Shown piece by piece: positions 1,773 through 53,993 of a DNA stretch of 64,000 nucleotides. The notes below the pieces were generated by a model. It worked only from the letters and a program-made list of their open reading frames with translations, made no database searches and had not been told where the DNA came from. The stretch's first letter is position 1. Each line of letters starts with the position of its first letter. Source of the DNA: Prochlorococcus sp. AG-418-I20 (lineage in GTDB: Bacteria > Cyanobacteriota > Cyanobacteriia > PCC-6307 > Cyanobiaceae). Position numbers and translations under genes: made by a program. The DNA is taken from the NCBI GenBank assembly GCA_003214175.1, contig QCLZ01000005.1:1-64000 (forward strand), in the 5' to 3' direction.

Positions 1773-3155
1773 TTAAGTATCTAAAAGTCTCAGAAGTTCT
1801 TTAATATGAGATTCTTTTGTATTGTAATTTCCCATGACAACCCGTAAAAAATATTTACCTTTAAATTTTGGTCTAGAAAGCATAAAATTATTGTTAATTA
1901 GTTCATTTACTTTAGTTTGAGTCCATGCATCAGAGTCTTTTGGTTCAAGCTTCTTTGGTAAGAATGAGACAATGTGAAGAGGGCCTGAATATATATCAAA
2001 TTTATTTTTACTAATATTTTTTATAAAATAATCTTTTCTTTTAATTGATGATTTTAATATATTTTCTATTCCATTCAGACCTAAAAAACGTAACCCAAGC
2101 CATAGTTTGATAACCTCTGCAGGTCGAGAACCTTGTATGCCTATTTCTCCTCTATTTATAATATCTTCTTTAGATGATATATACGGTAGTCCAGTATTAA
2201 AAGTATTTTCTAAAGTACTCATATTTGAAACCAATAACAAAGATGAAGTTTTGGTAATGCCTATGATTTTTTGAGGATTTATCGTTATCGAATTAGCCAT
2301 TTTAATATTGTTCAAACCTTCTATTGGAATAGATGTTAAAGCAAAAATTCCTCCAATAGAACCATCAATATGTAACCATATGTTTCTTTGTTTACAGATT
2401 TCACTTATTTCTTTAATAGGATCAATAGATCCTCTTACTGTTGTCCCAAGGGTGGCAACAATAGCAAATATTTTTTTATTTTCTATTGAACATTTATTTA
2501 AAGACTTTCTGAGATCGTTTATATCCATACGACCTTGACTATCAGTTTTTATCCTAACGAGATTCTTAATATCGAGACCCATTACTCTTATACATTTAAC
2601 GAAGGAAGAATGAGCATCCTCACTAACAAGTAATACAGAATTAGGATTTTTACCTAATCCAGCATTATTTCTAGCTGCTATAAGTGCATTAAGATTACTT
2701 AATGTACCTCCGCTAGCAACTATACCTCCTGAGAATTCATTAAACCCTATTGTCTTGGCAAACCATTTGCACAATGATTCCTCAAGCAAAGTTACACTTG
2801 GTGATAACTCGTAAGCTAGAAGATTATTATTTAAGCCAGCAGCAATTAAATCTCCCAAAATAGAAAAAATTAAAGGTGGGGGATCAAGGTGAGCTAGTGA
2901 GCCAGGATGAACGGGATTAAATGAATTATTCAAAAGAGATTCAATCTCGGAAAACAAATCTTCTTCTGAGTTGCCATCTTCAGTAGGCATAATGCACTTG
3001 AAACTCCCATCAAAAGGTAAAGGACCATTTTCCTCAGCTTTAGATAACCACTCACAAAGAGTTTGACTTGCTCTATTCAGAAGAGTAATCAATTTGTCAT
3101 TAGTCCCTAAATATGAGGGAAAATATATATCTTTATTATTTAAATCTTCAGCCAT
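1773..3155 (-). CDS. PLP-dependent group II decarboxylase family protein
   Basis: At 460 residues this has the length and fold markers of group II amino-acid decarboxylases (aromatic amino acid, glutamate or diaminobutyrate type). The cofactor-stacking His is in EDAHSS (about H182), the pyridine-binding Asp in HIDGSIGG (D264), and the Schiff-base Lys in INPQKIIGI (K296). The lysine motif differs from the usual D-P-H-K and the HVDAA block reads HIDGS, so substrate cannot be assigned. It diverges from tadA with a 43-base gap and is followed by a tiny membrane ORF. The substrate could be an aromatic or an acidic amino acid. Confidence 0.75.
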   Translation of the reverse strand: MAEDLNNKDIYFPSYLGTNDKLITLLNRASQTLCEWLSKAEENGPLPFDGSFKCIMPTEDGNSEEDLFSEIESLLNNSFNPVHPGSLAHLDPPPLIFSILGDLIAAGLNNNLLAYELSPSVTLLEESLCKWFAKTIGFNEFSGGIVASGGTLSNLNALIAARNNAGLGKNPNSVLLVSEDAHSSFVKCIRVMGLDIKNLVRIKTDSQGRMDINDLRKSLNKCSIENKKIFAIVATLGTTVRGSIDPIKEISEICKQRNIWLHIDGSIGGIFALTSIPIEGLNNIKMANSITINPQKIIGITKTSSLLLVSNMSTLENTFNTGLPYISSKEDIINRGEIGIQGSRPAEVIKLWLGLRFLGLNGIENILKSSIKRKDYFIKNISKNKFDIYSGPLHIVSFLPKKLEPKDSDAWTQTKVNELINNNFMLSRPKFKGKYFLRVVMGNYNTKESHIKELLRLLDT

Positions 3156-3198
3156 CAGATAAGATATCTATTAATAATTCTATTCTCAATATTGGTAA

Positions 3199-3714
3199 AT
3201 GAGATATATTTTTGAAAATGGAAATAGTAAGGAAGATCAAGAAAAAAAAACAAATAATTCAAAATACACTTTGTGGATGAATTCAATATTAAGAAGATCC
3301 AAAGAAATTGGAAAAGTTGAGCTACCAATCTGTGCAATAATTTTAGATGAGAGAGGAAGATGTATCGGGAGAGGGGTCAATAGTAGGAATATAAATAAAG
3401 ACCCATTAGGTCATGCTGAAATAATGGCACTTAGGCAGGCATCTTTAATAAAAAATGATTGGAGATTTAATGGATGTACTATGATAACAAATTTAGAACC
3501 TTGTACTATGTGTTCCTCTGCTCTTATTCAAGCGCGGATGGGTAAAGTAATCTTCGGGGCTTACGATAAGAAAAGAGGTGGATTAGGTGGCTCAATTGAC
3601 CTATCAAAACATGAAAGTGCTCATCACAAAATGGAAATAATTGGAGGCATCCTAGAACATGAATGTAGTCAAATTTTACAGATTTGGTTCAAAAAGTTGA
3701 GGACTCAAAAATAG
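3199..3714 (+). CDS. tadA: tRNA-specific adenosine deaminase
   Basis: This 171-residue cytidine/deoxycytidylate-deaminase-fold enzyme has the zinc ligands and catalytic Glu in GHAEIMAL (H72, E74) and PCTMC (C102, C105). The HAEIMAL block is typical of TadA, which converts A34 to inosine in the tRNA-Arg wobble position. About 20 polar residues precede the conserved YTLWMNSILRR block, so translation could also begin at an internal Met. It converges on and overlaps the end of the aminotransferase gene by 26 bases. Confidence 0.9.
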   Translation: MRYIFENGNSKEDQEKKTNNSKYTLWMNSILRRSKEIGKVELPICAIILDERGRCIGRGVNSRNINKDPLGHAEIMALRQASLIKNDWRFNGCTMITNLEPCTMCSSALIQARMGKVIFGAYDKKRGGLGGSIDLSKHESAHHKMEIIGGILEHECSQILQIWFKKLRTQK

Positions 3715-4873
3715 AAAATTTCTTTAGCTCAGTATCAAATAGGTTTAATAATCTGTCCACATTCTCCTCACATGAATTAAAACCCATTAGACCAACGCGC
3801 CAAACCTTACCAGATAATTCTCCAAGTCCATTTCCTATTTCAATTCCAAAGTTTCTCAAGAGATGATTTCTAAAACCATCCCCATCAACTGCTGGAGGTA
3901 TTTTAACTGTGGTTAAAGTTGGCAATCTATAATCCTCTGATACATGTAATTCCATTCCTAGACTTTCTAAACCATTCCAAAGTTTCTTTGCATTAGTATT
4001 ATGCCTATTCCAAACATTTTCTAAACCCTCATTAGCAATTAATCGTAAACCTTCACGAATAGCAAAATTCATATTTACCGGCGCAGTATGATGGTAAACA
4101 CGATCAGAACCCCAATATTTATTTAATAGAGATAAATCTAAATACCAGTTAGGTACTTTTGTTTTTCTTGAACTTAGTTTTTCTTCAGCTCTTTTATTCA
4201 TTGTAAAAGGACTTAATCCTGGCGGACAACTTAATCCCTTTTGACTACAACTGTATGCTAGATCAATTTTCCATTCGTCTATTAATAATTCTAAAGCACC
4301 AAGTGAAGTAACTGCATCTACTAAAAACAAGCAGTTATTTTTTCTACATATTTCGCCAATACCCTCAAGAGGTTGTAAAACACCACTAGATGTTTCAGCA
4401 TGGACAATAGCAAAAATGGCTGGTTTTTTAGTTTCTATTTCATACTTAATTTCATCATATGTAAAAGCTTCACCCCATGGTTTATCCATAACGGAAACTT
4501 GAGCTTTATATCTAGTCGCCATATCAACTAATCTGTCCCCGAAATATCCTTTTTTAGCAATCAAAATTTTTTCTCCTTCTTCAATAAAATTAGCTATTGA
4601 AGCTTCCATCGCAGCACTACCAGTACCGCTCATTGGAAGTGTAAGTCGATTATTGCACTGCCATGTATACCTTAAAAGTTGTTGGACATCAGACATCAAT
4701 GAGATATATGCTTCATCTAAATGTCCAATAGGATTTAAAGACAGAGCGCTTAAGACTTCTGGATGAGCATTTGAAGGACCAGGACCTAATAAAAGTCTAG
4801 AGGGAACATAAGTCTTTGAGAAATGAGATAAATTCTCTTTATTTAAAACAGGAATAAGTTTTGCTTCTGTCAA
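3689..4873 (-). CDS. spt: Serine-pyruvate / alanine-glyoxylate aminotransferase (class V)
   Basis: The protein is 394 residues, normal for class V PLP aminotransferases. LLLGPGPSNAHP near the N terminus is the family hallmark, VDAVTSLG contains the cofactor-binding Asp (about D186), and SQKGLSCPPG contains the Schiff-base Lys (K212). In cyanobacteria this enzyme is expected to turn photorespiratory glyoxylate into glycine using serine or alanine. It diverges from glnA across a 213-base regulatory gap and overlaps tadA tail to tail. Which amino donor is preferred cannot be read from sequence. Confidence 0.88.
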   Translation of the reverse strand: MTEAKLIPVLNKENLSHFSKTYVPSRLLLGPGPSNAHPEVLSALSLNPIGHLDEAYISLMSDVQQLLRYTWQCNNRLTLPMSGTGSAAMEASIANFIEEGEKILIAKKGYFGDRLVDMATRYKAQVSVMDKPWGEAFTYDEIKYEIETKKPAIFAIVHAETSSGVLQPLEGIGEICRKNNCLFLVDAVTSLGALELLIDEWKIDLAYSCSQKGLSCPPGLSPFTMNKRAEEKLSSRKTKVPNWYLDLSLLNKYWGSDRVYHHTAPVNMNFAIREGLRLIANEGLENVWNRHNTNAKKLWNGLESLGMELHVSEDYRLPTLTTVKIPPAVDGDGFRNHLLRNFGIEIGNGLGELSGKVWRVGLMGFNSCEENVDRLLNLFDTELKKFSIFESSTF

Positions 4874-5013
4874 AGCATTACATTCAATTACTTATAAATT
4901 AGACTAATTTCATCTCTTAAGCGATATTTCTTTAAAGAAATTAATTCAATTTAAATAATTAAGTAAATAATTATTGAAGTTATAACTTGAAACGCTGAAA
5001 GAAGACATCAAGT

Positions 5014-5064
5014 GTTAAAAAGGTTACGGTTGATACATAATAAGAATCATCAAGTAATTAATTT
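5014..5064 (+). promoter_or_regulatory. glnA promoter: two overlapping NtcA-like sites and a -10 box
   Basis: Two copies of GTT-N8-TAC overlap, at 5014-5027 and 5023-5036; the NtcA consensus is GTA-N8-TAC, so each has one mismatch. The second site is followed after 22 bases by TAATTT at 5059-5064, which fits the canonical NtcA-activated promoter spacing to a TANNNT -10 element. glnA starts 22 bases further on. Nitrogen-dependent control by NtcA is known for glnA in cyanobacteria; use of these exact sites is inferred. Confidence 0.75.
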
Positions 5065-5086
5065 CATAGAAGGTATATAAAAAGTT

Positions 5087-6508
5087 ATGTCTAAGTCTCC
5101 ACAAGATGTTTTAAGTCAAATTAAAGACGAAGGAATTGAACTCATCGATTTAAAATTTACTGACATCCATGGTAAATGGCAACATTTAACTCTTACATCA
5201 GACATGATAGAAGAGGATTCATTTACAGAAGGTCTTGCTTTTGATGGTTCATCAATAAGAGGTTGGAAAGCAATTAATGCCTCCGATATGGCAATGGTTC
5301 CTGATGCAAGTACAGCATGGATAGATCCTTTTTATAAACATAAAACTTTAAGTATGATTTGCTCTATCCAAGAGCCTAGAAGTGGTGAGCCCTATGATAG
5401 ATGTCCAAGATCATTAGCTCAAAAAGCTTTAAAATACTTAGGATCTACTGGGATTGCTGATACAGCATTTTTTGGACCGGAACCAGAATTTTTCTTATTT
5501 GATGACGTGAGATACGATTCAAAAGAAGGTTCCTGCTTTTACAGTGTAGATACAATTGAAGCTCCATGGAACACGGGAAGAATTGAAGAAGGTGGAAATT
5601 TAGGGTACAAGATCCAATACAAAGAAGGTTATTTTCCAGTATCTCCAAATGATACTGCGCAAGACATCAGATCTGAAATGCTACTTTTAATGGGTGAATT
5701 AGGCATACCCACAGAAAAGCATCACCATGAAGTAGCTGGTGCCGGTCAACACGAACTTGGAATGAAATTCGATTCGTTAATAAATTCTGCTGATAACGTA
5801 ATGACTTATAAATACGTTGTCAGGAATGTTGCTAAAAAATATGGAAAAACTGCTACGTTTATGCCCAAGCCTGTATTTAATGATAATGGAACTGGAATGC
5901 ATGTTCACCAAAGCTTATGGAAGAGTGGCCAGCCACTATTTTTTGGTGAAGGAGCATATGCAAATTTATCTCAAACAGCAAGATGGTACATCGGAGGCAT
6001 ACTTAAACATGCTCCATCATTCCTAGCATTTACTAACCCAACTACAAATAGTTATAAACGATTGGTTCCAGGATTCGAAGCACCTGTAAATCTAGTTTAT
6101 TCTGAGGGTAATAGATCGGCTGCAGTAAGAATACCTTTAACAGGTCCAAGCCCTAAAGCTAAAAGATTAGAATTCAGATCAGGTGACGCACTTGCAAATC
6201 CTTACTTAGCATTTTCTGTAATGATGCTTGCTGGAATTGATGGAATTAAAAATCAAATTGATCCTGGTGATGGAGTAGATGTAGATTTATTTGAACTTCC
6301 AGCTGAAGAACTTGCAAAAATTGATACAGTACCTTCATCTCTAAATGACTCACTTAATGCGCTAAAAGCAGATAAAGATTATCTATTAGCTGGTGGAGTA
6401 TTTACTGAAGATTTTATCGATAACTTTATAGATATAAAATACGAGGAAGTACAACAATTAAGACAAAGGCCTCATCCACATGAATTCTTCATGTATTACG
6501 ATGCCTAA
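5087..6508 (+). CDS. glnA: Glutamine synthetase, type I
   Basis: The 473-residue protein matches GSI length. Recognisable blocks are DGSSIRGW, the metal-binding FFGPEPEF, the catalytic GAGQHE, the ATP-binding region [16 protein letters not shown], and NRSAAVRIP. It makes glutamine from glutamate, ammonium and ATP in the cytoplasm and is the main entry of ammonium into carbon skeletons. It stands alone, with NtcA-like sites upstream and a strong hairpin terminator downstream, so it is a monocistronic nitrogen-regulated unit. Confidence 0.98.
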
Positions 6509-50146: not shown

Positions 50147-50940
50147 TGGTTAATAAGTTTTGGTTTGAAACGAAAAATATAAATTGTTTTAAAGGTGGTT
50201 TTAGAGTAATTAAAAATTTAAATTTAAATTTAGCTTATTCAGAGAATGTAATATTGATAGGACCTAATGGTTCAGGTAAATCATCTTTAATAGAATTAAT
50301 TAATAGAAACATATACCCAGTAATAACTAACAAATCAAAACTAAAGATATTTGATAAAGAACTTATTAATTTATGGGAACTAAGAAAGAGAGTAAGTACC
50401 GTAAATACTGACATTAAAAATAGAATTAATCCTGATCTACAAGTTTTAGATTTAATTTTAAGTGGACTATATGGAGGATTTTGTTACATACCAAATAAAT
50501 CTGAAAGAGATCTTTATAAAGTGGAAAAAATAATGAAAAATACGGATATATCAAATTTATCTAATAAAAAATTTTCACATTTATCGGATGGAGAAAAACA
50601 AATATCTCTAATTGTCAGAGCTTTAATCAACAAACCAGATATATTAATCTTAGATGAACCAATTACAAATTTAGATTATAAATCAAAGTTTTTTGTACTT
50701 GATAAGATTGATGAATTGTCTAAATTAGAAACCAAAATATTATGTGTAACACATAATATTTCAATGATCACCAGAATCTATGATCGGGTAATAATGCTAA
50801 AAAATGGAGAAATAATCGCTGATGGACATCAGAATAATGTTATGAATAGTGAAAATCTTAAAAAGTTATATGGGATTAAACTAGAAGTAAATAAAAACAA
50901 CGGAATCTGGACTATAAAAAGATTATCTAATAACAATTAG
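50146..50940 (+). CDS. ABC transporter ATP-binding protein
   Basis: The 264-residue protein is a stand-alone ATPase: Walker A GPNGSGKSSLIE, signature HLSDGEKQ (instead of LSGGQ), Walker B ILILDEP and a switch His. The LSDGEKQ motif and length recall ModF- or YbbA-like ATPases not coupled to an obvious membrane protein. The start is GTG. No permease gene is adjacent unless the micropeptide serves as an anchor. It overlaps the convergent zinc-ribbon gene by 18 bases. Confidence 0.85.
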   Translation: MVNKFWFETKNINCFKGGFRVIKNLNLNLAYSENVILIGPNGSGKSSLIELINRNIYPVITNKSKLKIFDKELINLWELRKRVSTVNTDIKNRINPDLQVLDLILSGLYGGFCYIPNKSERDLYKVEKIMKNTDISNLSNKKFSHLSDGEKQISLIVRALINKPDILILDEPITNLDYKSKFFVLDKIDELSKLETKILCVTHNISMITRIYDRVIMLKNGEIIADGHQNNVMNSENLKKLYGIKLEVNKNNGIWTIKRLSNNN

Positions 50941-51114
50941 AAAAATAATTATCACAACAAAAATAAAAAGAAAATTCTTCCTTCTTAAAAATGAAGATGA
51001 TTTATTTTTAATAGAAGAACTACCGCATCTAGAACATACTATCTTGCCACCTAAAGATCGATCTGAGACGAATGAAGAACATCCACAATTAAAACAGACT
51101 CTATTTACACTCAT
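50923..51114 (-). CDS. Zinc-ribbon small membrane protein, 63 aa
   Basis: An N-terminal zinc ribbon (CFNC at 7-10 and CSRC at 27-30, plus C12) followed by a basic linker and one hydrophobic helix (about 48-62). The layout is typical of zinc-ribbon membrane adaptor proteins. Function unknown. Confidence 0.65.
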   Translation of the reverse strand: MSVNRVCFNCGCSSFVSDRSLGGKIVCSRCGSSSIKNKSSSFLRRKNFLFIFVVIIIFLIVIR

Positions 51115-51193
51115 CTAAAATTAAAAAATTTAGTAATTATATTTGCATTATATTCGTTATGACAATGTAAAGAAAAACATCAAAATAATCGGT

Positions 51194-51212
51194 GATAATG
51201 AGAATCTATTGC
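51194..51212. promoter_or_regulatory. Fur-like box, distal
   Basis: GATAATGAGAATCTATTGC agrees with the 19-bp Fur consensus at about 14 positions. It lies 57 bases before the Crp/Fnr-family gene. The better proximal box is 26 bases downstream, so the two may act together. Confidence 0.5.
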
Positions 51213-51238
51213 AATAATAATTTCTATAGTGCATAATT

Positions 51239-51257
51239 GATAATAATTCTCATTATC
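51239..51257. promoter_or_regulatory. Fur-like box, proximal
   Basis: GATAATAATTCTCATTATC matches the Fur consensus GATAATGATAATCATTATC at 16 of 19 positions and is a near-perfect dyad. It ends 12 bases before the Crp/Fnr-family start codon, so it would cover the transcription start. Iron-dependent repression of that gene is inferred. Confidence 0.72.
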
Positions 51258-51269
51258 ATATTAAATTAG

Positions 51270-51857
51270 ATGGATTTCAATATTTATGGAGATTTACATT
51301 CAAAAACAATAAGGTTAATAACTGGCCAATCCGTTTTAATTGACCCTACTTCGAGACCAAAAGGAACTTGTTTAGAAGTAGAAACTGGAATAGCTAGGGT
51401 TTATTGCCCTTGTGAAGAAACTGAAGGTATGACTCTTGCATTTTTACAGTCAGGTGATCAATTAAGAACGGACCTTTTGTGTAGTGAAGGTGTCTGTGTT
51501 GAGGCACTTACAGATTTATCTTTTCATAGCAATGTGAATATTGATGAGAAAATTGGTTTTGATGCAGTAAATGAGTGGACTTTGCAACTCCTCAGAATTA
51601 GACACTTAGGAAATGCGGAACAAAGATTACAAGCTTTATTTTCAATACTAGTAAATCGTTTAGGAAGAAGATGTGGTCAATGGTGTGAACTCCCTTTTAG
51701 GTTAACTCATGAAAGGATAGGAGAATTAATCGGATCAACACGCGTAACATCAACAAGATTAATTTCAAAATTAAGAGCATCTAAGTTATTACTAGCTCCA
51801 ATTGGTACACAAACAGTAAGTGTTGCTCCCACTTTTATTGAAACATCACCAATATAG
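51270..51857 (+). CDS. Cysteine-rich Crp/Fnr-family regulator
   Basis: The 195-residue protein has a degenerate N-terminal cupin/cNMP domain and a clear C-terminal helix-turn-helix (RLTHERIGELIGSTRVTSTR). It contains seven cysteines (34, 46, 48, 71, 76, 135, 139) in CPC, CSEGVC and CGQWC pairs, unusual for a Crp protein and suggestive of metal or redox sensing. Two Fur-like boxes precede it and a helical gene follows four bases after. The cAMP-binding residues are not evident. Confidence 0.82.
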   Translation: MDFNIYGDLHSKTIRLITGQSVLIDPTSRPKGTCLEVETGIARVYCPCEETEGMTLAFLQSGDQLRTDLLCSEGVCVEALTDLSFHSNVNIDEKIGFDAVNEWTLQLLRIRHLGNAEQRLQALFSILVNRLGRRCGQWCELPFRLTHERIGELIGSTRVTSTRLISKLRASKLLLAPIGTQTVSVAPTFIETSPI

Positions 51858-51861
51858 AAAT

Positions 51862-52152
51862 ATGGAAGAATCACATTCACTTACTAACAACTTACTGATA
51901 GAAGTTGATTTATTATCGAATAGACTCAGAAATATAAAGCAATCATTCAAAATTACTCATAATGAAGTATTGAAAGCAAGGTTAATTTCTGAAAACAAAA
52001 ATATTTTTATAAGGGTAAATGAGATTTCTAAAATAGCTGACCTCTTAAATACAAAAAACTATGAGAAAATAAACTTTACAAATTTACTTGTTGAATTAAC
52101 AAAAAGGATATTGAATGAAAATAAATTTGAAAGTAATTTATTTTTTCTTTAA
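51862..52152 (+). CDS. Small helical hypothetical protein, 96 aa
   Basis: Translation from the ATG at 51862 gives MEESHSLTNNLLIEVDLLSNRL and then almost continuous helix (KQSFKITHNEVLKARLI; INFTNLLVELTKRIL). I chose this start because a longer frame begins inside the Crp/Fnr-family gene. It is four bases after that gene, so it should share its iron response. It overlaps ferritin tail to tail by 15 bases. Function unknown. Confidence 0.6.
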   Translation: MEESHSLTNNLLIEVDLLSNRLRNIKQSFKITHNEVLKARLISENKNIFIRVNEISKIADLLNTKNYEKINFTNLLVELTKRILNENKFESNLFFL

Positions 52153-52692
52153 ATCACTGTCTATCAACAAGATTGCAGAAGGTTGATTAGATGCAAACTT
52201 AACTTTGCCAAGTATATTTGCAAATTCATCTTCAGATTTTGTTTGCGCATCTACAATTGGATCCAAGAATACATTGGTTCTAGTATCTGAAATCCTTTCT
52301 GAAATGGAATAAAGTTGTTGTAGAGATGATGTTAAATCAGCTTCCATATTGAAAGAATAAGAAATCAATTCCTCAATTGAATCCCATGCTTGAACTGGTG
52401 CAGGAAGTTCATCTAATTTGACGCTTTGTCCTCTTGCTATTAAATAATCTGCAAATTTTTGCGCATGTTCCATTTCACCTTGTGATTCACTTAGAAAATG
52501 TGAGGCAAAACCATTCAAATCCCGCTCTTGAAACCAAAGGTATATAGAAAAATATTGAACATTAGCAAATCTTTCCATTGTTAGATGTTCAAAAATATTA
52601 TCCAATAAACTATTATCCATTGGTTGAGCAACAGCTCTTCCAGATGGACCAAAATTAACTGATTTCTTTGTTTTTAAATTATTTGCATTCAT
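52138..52692 (-). CDS. ftn: Ferritin
   Basis: The 184-residue protein has the four-helix ferroxidase residues: ERFANVQYFSIY (E40), the ExxH in GEMEHAQKF (E73, H76), and a later EFANILGK. It stores iron in the cytoplasm. Its N terminus has about 25 extra residues before the first helix. A Fur-like box and a TATAAT -10 (52769-52774, minus strand) lie upstream, so iron should regulate it. Confidence 0.95.
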   Translation of the reverse strand: MNANNLKTKKSVNFGPSGRAVAQPMDNSLLDNIFEHLTMERFANVQYFSIYLWFQERDLNGFASHFLSESQGEMEHAQKFADYLIARGQSVKLDELPAPVQAWDSIEELISYSFNMEADLTSSLQQLYSISERISDTRTNVFLDPIVDAQTKSEDEFANILGKVKFASNQPSAILLIDSDLKKK

Positions 52693-52775
52693 TACTAATA
52701 AGAAACTATATAAATACTACAACATTTTGTATAAATTAGTAATTAATAAATCCTAGAAATTAAATTAAATTATAT

Positions 52776-52794
52776 GATAATGAAAATCAATCGC
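52776..52794. promoter_or_regulatory. Fur-like box between ferritin and the Cys-rich ORF
   Basis: GATAATGAAAATCAATCGC matches the Fur consensus at about 15 of 19 positions. On the minus strand it sits directly before the TATAAT -10 at 52774-52769, so it overlaps the ferritin promoter. It ends 10 bases before the divergent Cys-rich ORF, so one site could control both. Confidence 0.6.
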
Positions 52795-52804
52795 AATATT
52801 ATAA

Positions 52805-52927
52805 ATGAATTTGAAATATAGTTTTTCTGAACTGCTAATAACTAATAAAATATATTCAAATAAAAAAAAGAAATGTAAAAAGAAAAAATGCTCTAATTGG
52901 AAGGGAGGAAAGTGTAATTGCCTATAA
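52805..52927 (+). CDS. Cys/Lys-rich small protein, 40 aa, divergent from ferritin
   Basis: From the ATG at 52805: MNLKYSFSELLITNKIYSNK, then a Lys-rich stretch with four cysteines at 24, 29, 37 and 39 (CX4CX7CXC) and a Trp-Lys-Gly-Gly between them. The spaced cysteines suggest a metal-binding microprotein. It shares its upstream gap and a Fur-like box with ferritin. Its stop is seven bases from the convergent fbpC-like gene. It is too short for normal ORF thresholds and the family is unknown to me. Confidence 0.6.
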   Translation: MNLKYSFSELLITNKIYSNKKKKCKKKKCSNWKGGKCNCL

Positions 52928-52934
52928 TTAAAGT

Positions 52935-53993
52935 TTATATAGATACCTTATGTGCACCAGGATATAAAAAATAATAACTATTTTTATCTATAGAAAGAGA
53001 ACATTTATCACCAGTATTTAAGAGATTATTAATATTAGTTCTAACTCTCAAAATGTTATCGTTAATAGATACTTTATATATGAGAAATTCTCCAAAAAAC
53101 TCTTTAGATATTACAATTGCATTGCCTGATTCTGATTTTTTAATTGAAATAAATTTAGGCGAAATTGACATAATTTTTATTTGTGTATTGTTTATTAACC
53201 CTGAAGGACTTATTTCACCTAAGCAAGTCATAAATGAATTACCAGTTTTTTTAAGTTTAATAATATTATTTCCCAAAATAAAACTACTAACAAATATAGT
53301 CTTGGGATTATTTAAAAGGTTAATTGGTGTATCTATTTGATGAATTTTACCTTCATTCATAACGGCCACTTTATCGCAAATTGACATTGCTTCTTCAGGG
53401 TCATGAGTAACCATCAATCCGCTTGCATTACAGCCTCTTAGAATATTAGGAAGTTCACTTCGCAATTTAAGCTTGACATGTGAATCAAGACTACAAAATG
53501 GTTCATCTAATAAAATAAAATCTGTTCCAGGAGCAAGAGCCCTTGCAATTGCGAGTCTTTGTTTTTGACCTCCAGACAATTCATGTGGGTATCTACCAAC
53601 ATAACTATCTAGTCCAACAATATTCAATAAATAGTCAATTCTAGATCTATCTTTTTTATGTTTTAAGCCAAACATAACATTTTCCATAACGGTTAAGTGA
53701 GGGAAAAGTGCATAATCTTGAAATACCATTCCAATATTTCTTTTCTCAGGACTAACAATTTTATTCCTACTTGAAATCTCCTTATAATTTAAAGAAATCA
53801 TCCCTTTTGAAGGATATTCAAACCCTGCAATTAATCTCAAAAGTGTTGTTTTTCCACAACCAGATGGGCCAAGCAAACCTAATAATTCACCATTTTTAAT
53901 TTTTAAATTAACTTCATTTAATATCCAATTTGAATAATCACCCTTATCATATTTATGATGCAGATCATCAATTATTAACGCATCATTTTTCAC
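52935..53993 (-). CDS. fbpC: ABC transporter ATPase, iron(III) type (FbpC/FutC-like)
   Basis: The 352-residue protein has Walker A GPSGCGKTTLLRL, the FQDYALFPHLTV block, signature LSGGQKQRLAIARAL and Walker B FILLDEPF, plus a C-terminal regulatory domain of about 120 residues with TOBE-like repeats. This is the CysA/PotA/FbpC subfamily. The neighbouring ferritin and Fur-like boxes favour iron, but polyamine or sulfate is possible. No permease or binding protein gene is in the window. Confidence 0.85.
   Translation of the reverse strand: MKNDALIIDDLHHKYDKGDYSNWILNEVNLKIKNGELLGLLGPSGCGKTTLLRLIAGFEYPSKGMISLNYKEISSRNKIVSPEKRNIGMVFQDYALFPHLTVMENVMFGLKHKKDRSRIDYLLNIVGLDSYVGRYPHELSGGQKQRLAIARALAPGTDFILLDEPFCSLDSHVKLKLRSELPNILRGCNASGLMVTHDPEEAMSICDKVAVMNEGKIHQIDTPINLLNNPKTIFVSSFILGNNIIKLKKTGNSFMTCLGEISPSGLINNTQIKIMSISPKFISIKKSESGNAIVISKEFFGEFLIYKVSINDNILRVRTNINNLLNTGDKCSLSIDKNSYYFLYPGAHKVSI

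Follow-up and report, generated by a model that had tools for sequence, protein, structure and literature searches.

Primary production in large parts of the ocean is iron-limited. An iron-responsive small protein encoded beside an iron-storage gene has precedents such as Bfd, a protein of about 60 aa with four cysteines (Cys4) which, in the bacteria that have it, lies beside the iron-storage gene and is induced in iron starvation; its hallmarks include a [2Fe-2S] cluster and the reduction of ferritin. In Bacillus subtilis, FbpA, FbpB and FbpC are Fur-regulated, basic small proteins (29-59 aa) of the iron-sparing response that act together with an iron-responsive sRNA on iron-rich targets, and none of them is known to have a Cys4 core.

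The window analysed here, a whole stretch of 64,000 nucleotides from Prochlorococcus sp. AG-418-I20, contains a 40-codon gene that diverges from a non-heme ferritin gene across a 112-base gap. The features of this region are the following:

51193-51207 and 51238-51252, strand not assigned: two Fur-like sites upstream of the CRP-family gene; the latter matches on either strand and is overlapped by a further match at 51244-51258
51270..51857, plus strand: CRP/FNR-family regulator; family-wide, the second constant neighbour of the microprotein besides ferritin
52138..52692, minus strand: non-heme ferritin, 184 aa, pI 4.8 (PF00210, E 2.5e-27)
52714..52721, minus strand: putative ferritin extended -10, TGTAGTAT here, within the conserved block AATAATACAACATTTTGTATAAAT
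52770..52775, plus strand: putative microprotein -10, TTATAT here, TATAAT or TAAAAT in many relatives; its last T is common to the box
52775..52789, plus strand: Fur-family box TGATAATGAAAATCA (15-mer), with a conserved extension to about 52798
52805..52927, plus strand: microprotein gene, 40 aa, Cys/Lys-rich; product MNLKYSFSELLITNKIYSNKKKKCKKKKCSNWKGGKCNCL
52935..53993, minus strand: ABC transporter ATPase of the FbpC/FutC/PotA type; its gene converges with that of the microprotein

The microprotein resembles Bfd (PF04324) in being small, Cys4 and encoded by a gene linked to iron storage (in 38 of 48 genera no more than 500 bp separate it from ferritin). It differs in being much shorter and Lys-rich, in the spacing of its cysteines (CX4CX7CXC versus the CXC-X(31-35)-CXXC ligands of Bfd) and in its neighbouring storage protein and presumed partner, which is a non-heme ferritin. 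None of 26 microprotein members matched the Fer2_BFD profile PF04324 and this, together with the different cysteine spacing, indicates that the microprotein is not a Bfd member. With FbpA/FbpB/FbpC it shares small size, basic character and a Fur-type box at the promoter, whereas the Cys4 core and the ferritin linkage belong to the microprotein, and no homology was detected. Like the cyanobacterial metallothioneins SmtA/BmtA it is a small Cys peptide with a CXC under putative Fur/Zur-type control; unlike them it has four cysteines, versus about nine, and is linked to ferritin and not to zinc genes. NsiR6/NblD-type proteins and CP12 are also small cyanobacterial proteins with two pairs of conserved cysteines, but they differ in sequence and size, are triggered by nitrogen or light and occur phylum-wide, versus a single family for the microprotein (PMC5126843).

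A short protein-coding gene under purifying selection

The Lys-rich frame with CX4CX7CXC proposed at 52805-52927 in the initial annotation was borne out. Its 40 residues include 12 Lys and 4 Cys, the computed charge is +10.4 and the computed pI 9.9. The six frames of the window hold 103 ORFs of 30-80 aa that start with ATG, and no other of these has its cysteine pattern. Conservation of the frame and of the four cysteines in relatives, chosen beforehand as the test on which the gene should stand or fall, was likewise observed. Among 110 distinct copies from the genus, a set chosen by cysteine pattern, the ATG position is identical in all 110. By the Nei-Gojobori method dN/dS is 0.22 over the whole frame, with 0.57 in codons 1-19 as against 0.017 in codons 20-40. 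Also, all 30 loci that were retrieved via ferritin, and not via the microprotein, have a microprotein with all four cysteines. The frame is a genuine protein-coding gene found family-wide in the Cyanobiaceae (Prochlorococcus and Synechococcus-type relatives), and its Cys4/Trp/Gly-Gly/Lys core is under strong purifying selection. It is so short that annotation easily misses it, despite the extreme constraint on this core.

The invariant core spans K20 to C39 (KKKKCKKKKCSNWKGGKCNC). Across genera its consensus is KKKxCKKxKC[ST]xWKGGKCxC, with residues kept while codons drift; at the two core Gly codons all four third-position bases are used and the Gly residue is constant. Total length varies across the family from 28 to 47 residues, the four cysteines being invariant. 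One genus copy (L077) has stops within the N-terminal half and an intact core, and may represent an assembly error. AlphaFold predicted a helix at residues 3-26 and a hairpin over the Cys end (pTM 0.43; mean pLDDT above 70 in only one of five models), and Foldseek searches with this low-confidence model recovered no match in the PDB.

Distribution in the family and in databases

Of 200 genomes searched in the genus, 162 gave a microprotein match when the threshold was lax; 66 of the 200 are near-complete, and 62 of these carry the gene. In a sample of 201 genomes of the family, E values up to 1 were obtained for 150 genomes, which belong to 52 of 59 genera; the ten matches with E of at least 0.05 were excluded from later counts. 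Relatives named Prochlorococcus that were found by the family profile have the same gene. When 194 genomes of the class were searched with a profile, no credible copy turned up outside the family; the weak class-level match that was inspected (f4, in G395) has no cysteines and was attributed to chance. A phage-borne origin was also considered and rejected, with no match found in phages or viral contigs.

No match to the microprotein was obtained in Pfam, NCBIfam or PDB sequences, nor in Rfam above the gathering threshold, and searches of the open-access literature with core strings and keywords found no description of the gene, which may already be annotated as a hypothetical protein. As a sequence family, it appears to be new.

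A stand-alone core form of 28 aa (MGDKKKKKKCKKKKCSAWKGGKCICHGQ or similar) occurs near position 4000 in loci L223, L247, L248, L251 and L255, away from ferritin. This form belongs to genera g27, g39 and g56, and genome G275 carries both forms.

Linkage to ferritin and to a CRP-family regulator

Surroundings of the gene were inspected in 48 genera. Besides the 38 in which ferritin lies within 500 bp, six further genera (g2, g5, g6, g30, g41 and g55) have the microprotein adjoining the CRP-family regulator, with ferritin some 4.2-4.4 kb away in g5, and four (g27, g48, g56 and g59, the last on a short contig) have neither gene beside it. Genera in which the microprotein does not adjoin ferritin include g6, g30, g48 and g56. 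The layout itself differs between genera: the divergent arrangement is the usual one, but the genes are convergent in g10, g35, g45 and g54, where the ferritins are 30-45% identical to that of the window, and divergent in g9, where the ferritin is 39% identical and the CRP-family gene lies on the other side of the microprotein; these differences indicate that the linkage was re-formed. The CRP-family regulator is the other member of the ancestral microprotein cluster.

Presence of the two genes was also compared in 191 genomes of other genera. Both occur in 128 and neither in 53, with the microprotein alone in 2 and ferritin alone in 8 (Fisher p 6e-36, a value inflated by shared ancestry, by adjacency, as one deletion removes both, and by incomplete assemblies). 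Three single-contig genomes (G222, G232 and G243) lack both genes, though their genus-mates have both. The microprotein is thus persistently linked to ferritin or, failing that, to the CRP-family regulator, and it co-occurs with ferritin. The tie that had been proposed from the shared gap alone is in this way supported by neighbourhood and by co-occurrence, the gain, loss and position of the gene following ferritin.

Two loci with no adjacent ferritin have neighbours that were judged by eye from sequence: a catalase-peroxidase-like frame at 4464-6347 (minus strand) in L208, and an iron-type ABC permease-like frame at 2436-3992 (plus strand) in L224.

A Fur-family box at the microprotein promoter

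The initial annotation had placed a Fur-like box in the gap (GATAATGAAAATCAATCGC, 52776-52794), and this box proved to be conserved in relatives, where it appears as TGAKAATSAATMTCA about 87-109 nt upstream of the Lys/Cys core. Its own 1.5-Mb genome has no exact match to TGATAATNAWWATCA other than the copy TGATAATGAAAATCA; allowing one mismatch there are 31 genomic sites, versus 12 for the reversed control. With at most one mismatch, the box is found in a fixed 46-nt window at 39 of 85 loci, versus 0.53% of windows drawn at random from these loci, the pattern having been refined on the same 85 loci on which it was tested. It is weak or missing in the GC-rich genera and in g35, and some of the boxless microprotein loci may be read through from the CRP-family gene.

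Two conserved non-coding blocks are present in the gap. In one of them the box abuts the putative -10 of the microprotein, a TANNAT-like hexamer with T in 29, A in 31, A in 27 and T in 36 of 36 sequences at positions 1, 2, 5 and 6. The other holds the putative extended -10 of ferritin, which reads TGTATTAT or TGTATCAT in relatives (TGTATTAT being kept in the genus and TGTATCATT in other genera), has the minus-strand consensus TGTATYATT and lies about 60 bp from the box; ferritin transcription is inferred to start near 52707. Since the box abuts the -10 of the microprotein and ferritin has an extended -10 of its own, the box is best viewed as a putative operator of the microprotein promoter, some 75 bp upstream of the predicted ferritin start. 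A conserved Fur-type box abutting its own promoter makes the microprotein a candidate member of the Fur regulon.

This arrangement alters the earlier picture, in which the box, with a TATAAT beside it, had been assigned to the ferritin promoter. The TATAAT is present at 52774-52769 on the minus strand, but it is not conserved as such in relatives, and the box adjoins the -10 of the microprotein. The proposal that the microprotein is switched together with iron storage is likewise unsupported in that form, the box lying on the microprotein promoter and ferritin being under its own. From this position of the box the simplest prediction is that the microprotein would be expressed under iron scarcity, ferritin being driven by a separate promoter, and the two are probably not co-induced.

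A similar box precedes a porin gene in a relative (L326), and the motif also matches the znuA/znuC gap of the window's genome (G000), as well as two genes in G268, one a znuC-like ABC gene and the other of CobW type, so that, to judge from these sites, Fur and Zur boxes look alike in this lineage. The region upstream of flavodoxin in G000, taken as a reference Fur site, showed no clear 7-1-7 box. In the same lineage, a Zur box overlaps the -10 elements of znuA and znuC, which has been read as repression and offers a precedent for repressing a gene by overlap with its -10; the metallothionein gene bmtA of marine Synechococcus is under Zur (PMC9337993). Two Fur-family proteins are encoded in 6 of 6 complete relatives, whereas in the window's assembly (95.6% complete) a single Fur-family gene was found, beside znu, and fur is absent; given the two genes of the complete relatives, fur of this genome probably sits in an assembly gap.

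Proposed function and alternative explanations

In the mechanism that we favour, to which we give about an even chance, a Fur or Fur-like repressor would keep the microprotein gene from being transcribed while iron suffices, and starvation for iron would lift this block. The microprotein, with a charge of about +10, would dock on the shell of ferritin, which is acidic (computed charge of -9.2 per subunit), its CX4CX7CXC set would bind iron, zinc or an Fe-S cluster, and it would assist iron exchange or release from ferritin, the job that Bfd does for bacterioferritin elsewhere. A ferritin-docking metal or Fe-S peptide is favoured because of these opposite charges and because stand-alone Bfd was not found in any of the 201 family genomes, where the few PF04324 matches lie in frames of at least 290 aa. 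A more specific proposal makes the microprotein a ferritin partner that is peculiar to this lineage and had not been described before: cationic, Cys4 and repressed by Fur, it would dock on non-heme ferritin, gate iron release and stand in for Bfd in Prochlorococcus and the Synechococcus-type relatives. This proposal is put forward tentatively and as somewhat doubtful. The microprotein is a good candidate for a missing ferritin partner in marine picocyanobacteria and, if it acts on ferritin, iron mobilisation in these dominant marine phototrophs would be directly testable with a synthetic peptide of roughly 40 residues.

The strong basicity of the peptide (pI about 10), the Lys blocks around its cysteines and the Fur-type promoter would also suit an iron-starvation RNA/DNA chaperone acting in the manner of FbpA/FbpB/FbpC, in which the Lys residues, with a small Cys4 metal site, would bind nucleic acid and down-regulate iron-rich proteins, ferritin being a regulon neighbour only. 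Persistence of the CRP-family linkage even without ferritin is consistent with such a role, but the repeated linkage to different ferritins and the co-occurrence with ferritin would be left unexplained, and the microprotein matched no nucleic-acid-binding family; we consider the chaperone unlikely. It is also improbable that the peptide is a metal buffer or chaperone of the metallothionein kind, which would bind Fe2+, Zn2+ or Cu+ as ferritin stores empty, or zinc under Zur, without touching ferritin. Four invariant cysteines with a CXC, the likeness of Fur and Zur boxes in the lineage and the Zur control of bmtA in marine Synechococcus (PMC9337993) agree with such a buffer; the core, however, has only four Cys and no His, no metallothionein profile of Pfam or NCBIfam matched it, and the gene lies among those for ferritin, a CRP-family protein and an ABC ATPase and not beside znu.

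Paired cysteines, and the catalase-peroxidase-like neighbour seen by eye in one genome, could point to a thiol-redox switch peptide (CP12 or NsiR6-like) whose disulfides would signal oxidative stress to a target such as ferritin or the CRP-family regulator. This seems a remote prospect, since the promoter is Fur-type and not peroxide-type and the Trp and Gly-Gly, kept without exception, point to a metal or binding fold. That the conservation derives from RNA, a leader peptide or DNA sites, and not from a protein, is hardly credible: two conserved non-coding blocks do lie in the same gap, but the dN/dS of 0.017, the freedom of third positions and the lack of an Rfam match above the gathering threshold argue against it. 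A non-coding RNA is ruled out by the codon pattern and the Rfam result, and a leader peptide or attenuator for the next gene is excluded here, the ABC ATPase gene being convergent and the core under protein-level selection.

Other genes of the cluster

No gene accompanies the microprotein more constantly than the CRP-family regulator, whose best NCBIfam match, PtrA, is far below the cut-off. At the 3' side of the regulator a frame of 110 aa (51820-52152, plus strand), with no Pfam match, overlaps the 3' end of ferritin tail-to-tail. Its synteny is conserved and it diverges fast: among L062-L081, most of the loci that are more distant within the genus show about 42-56% identity. On the other side, a 63-aa protein (50923-51114, minus strand) with a zinc-ribbon-like head (CFNCGC...CSRCGS) and a hydrophobic C-terminal tail diverges from the CRP-family gene across the two Fur-like boxes (51193-51258), and is present in nearly all genus loci that reach this far.
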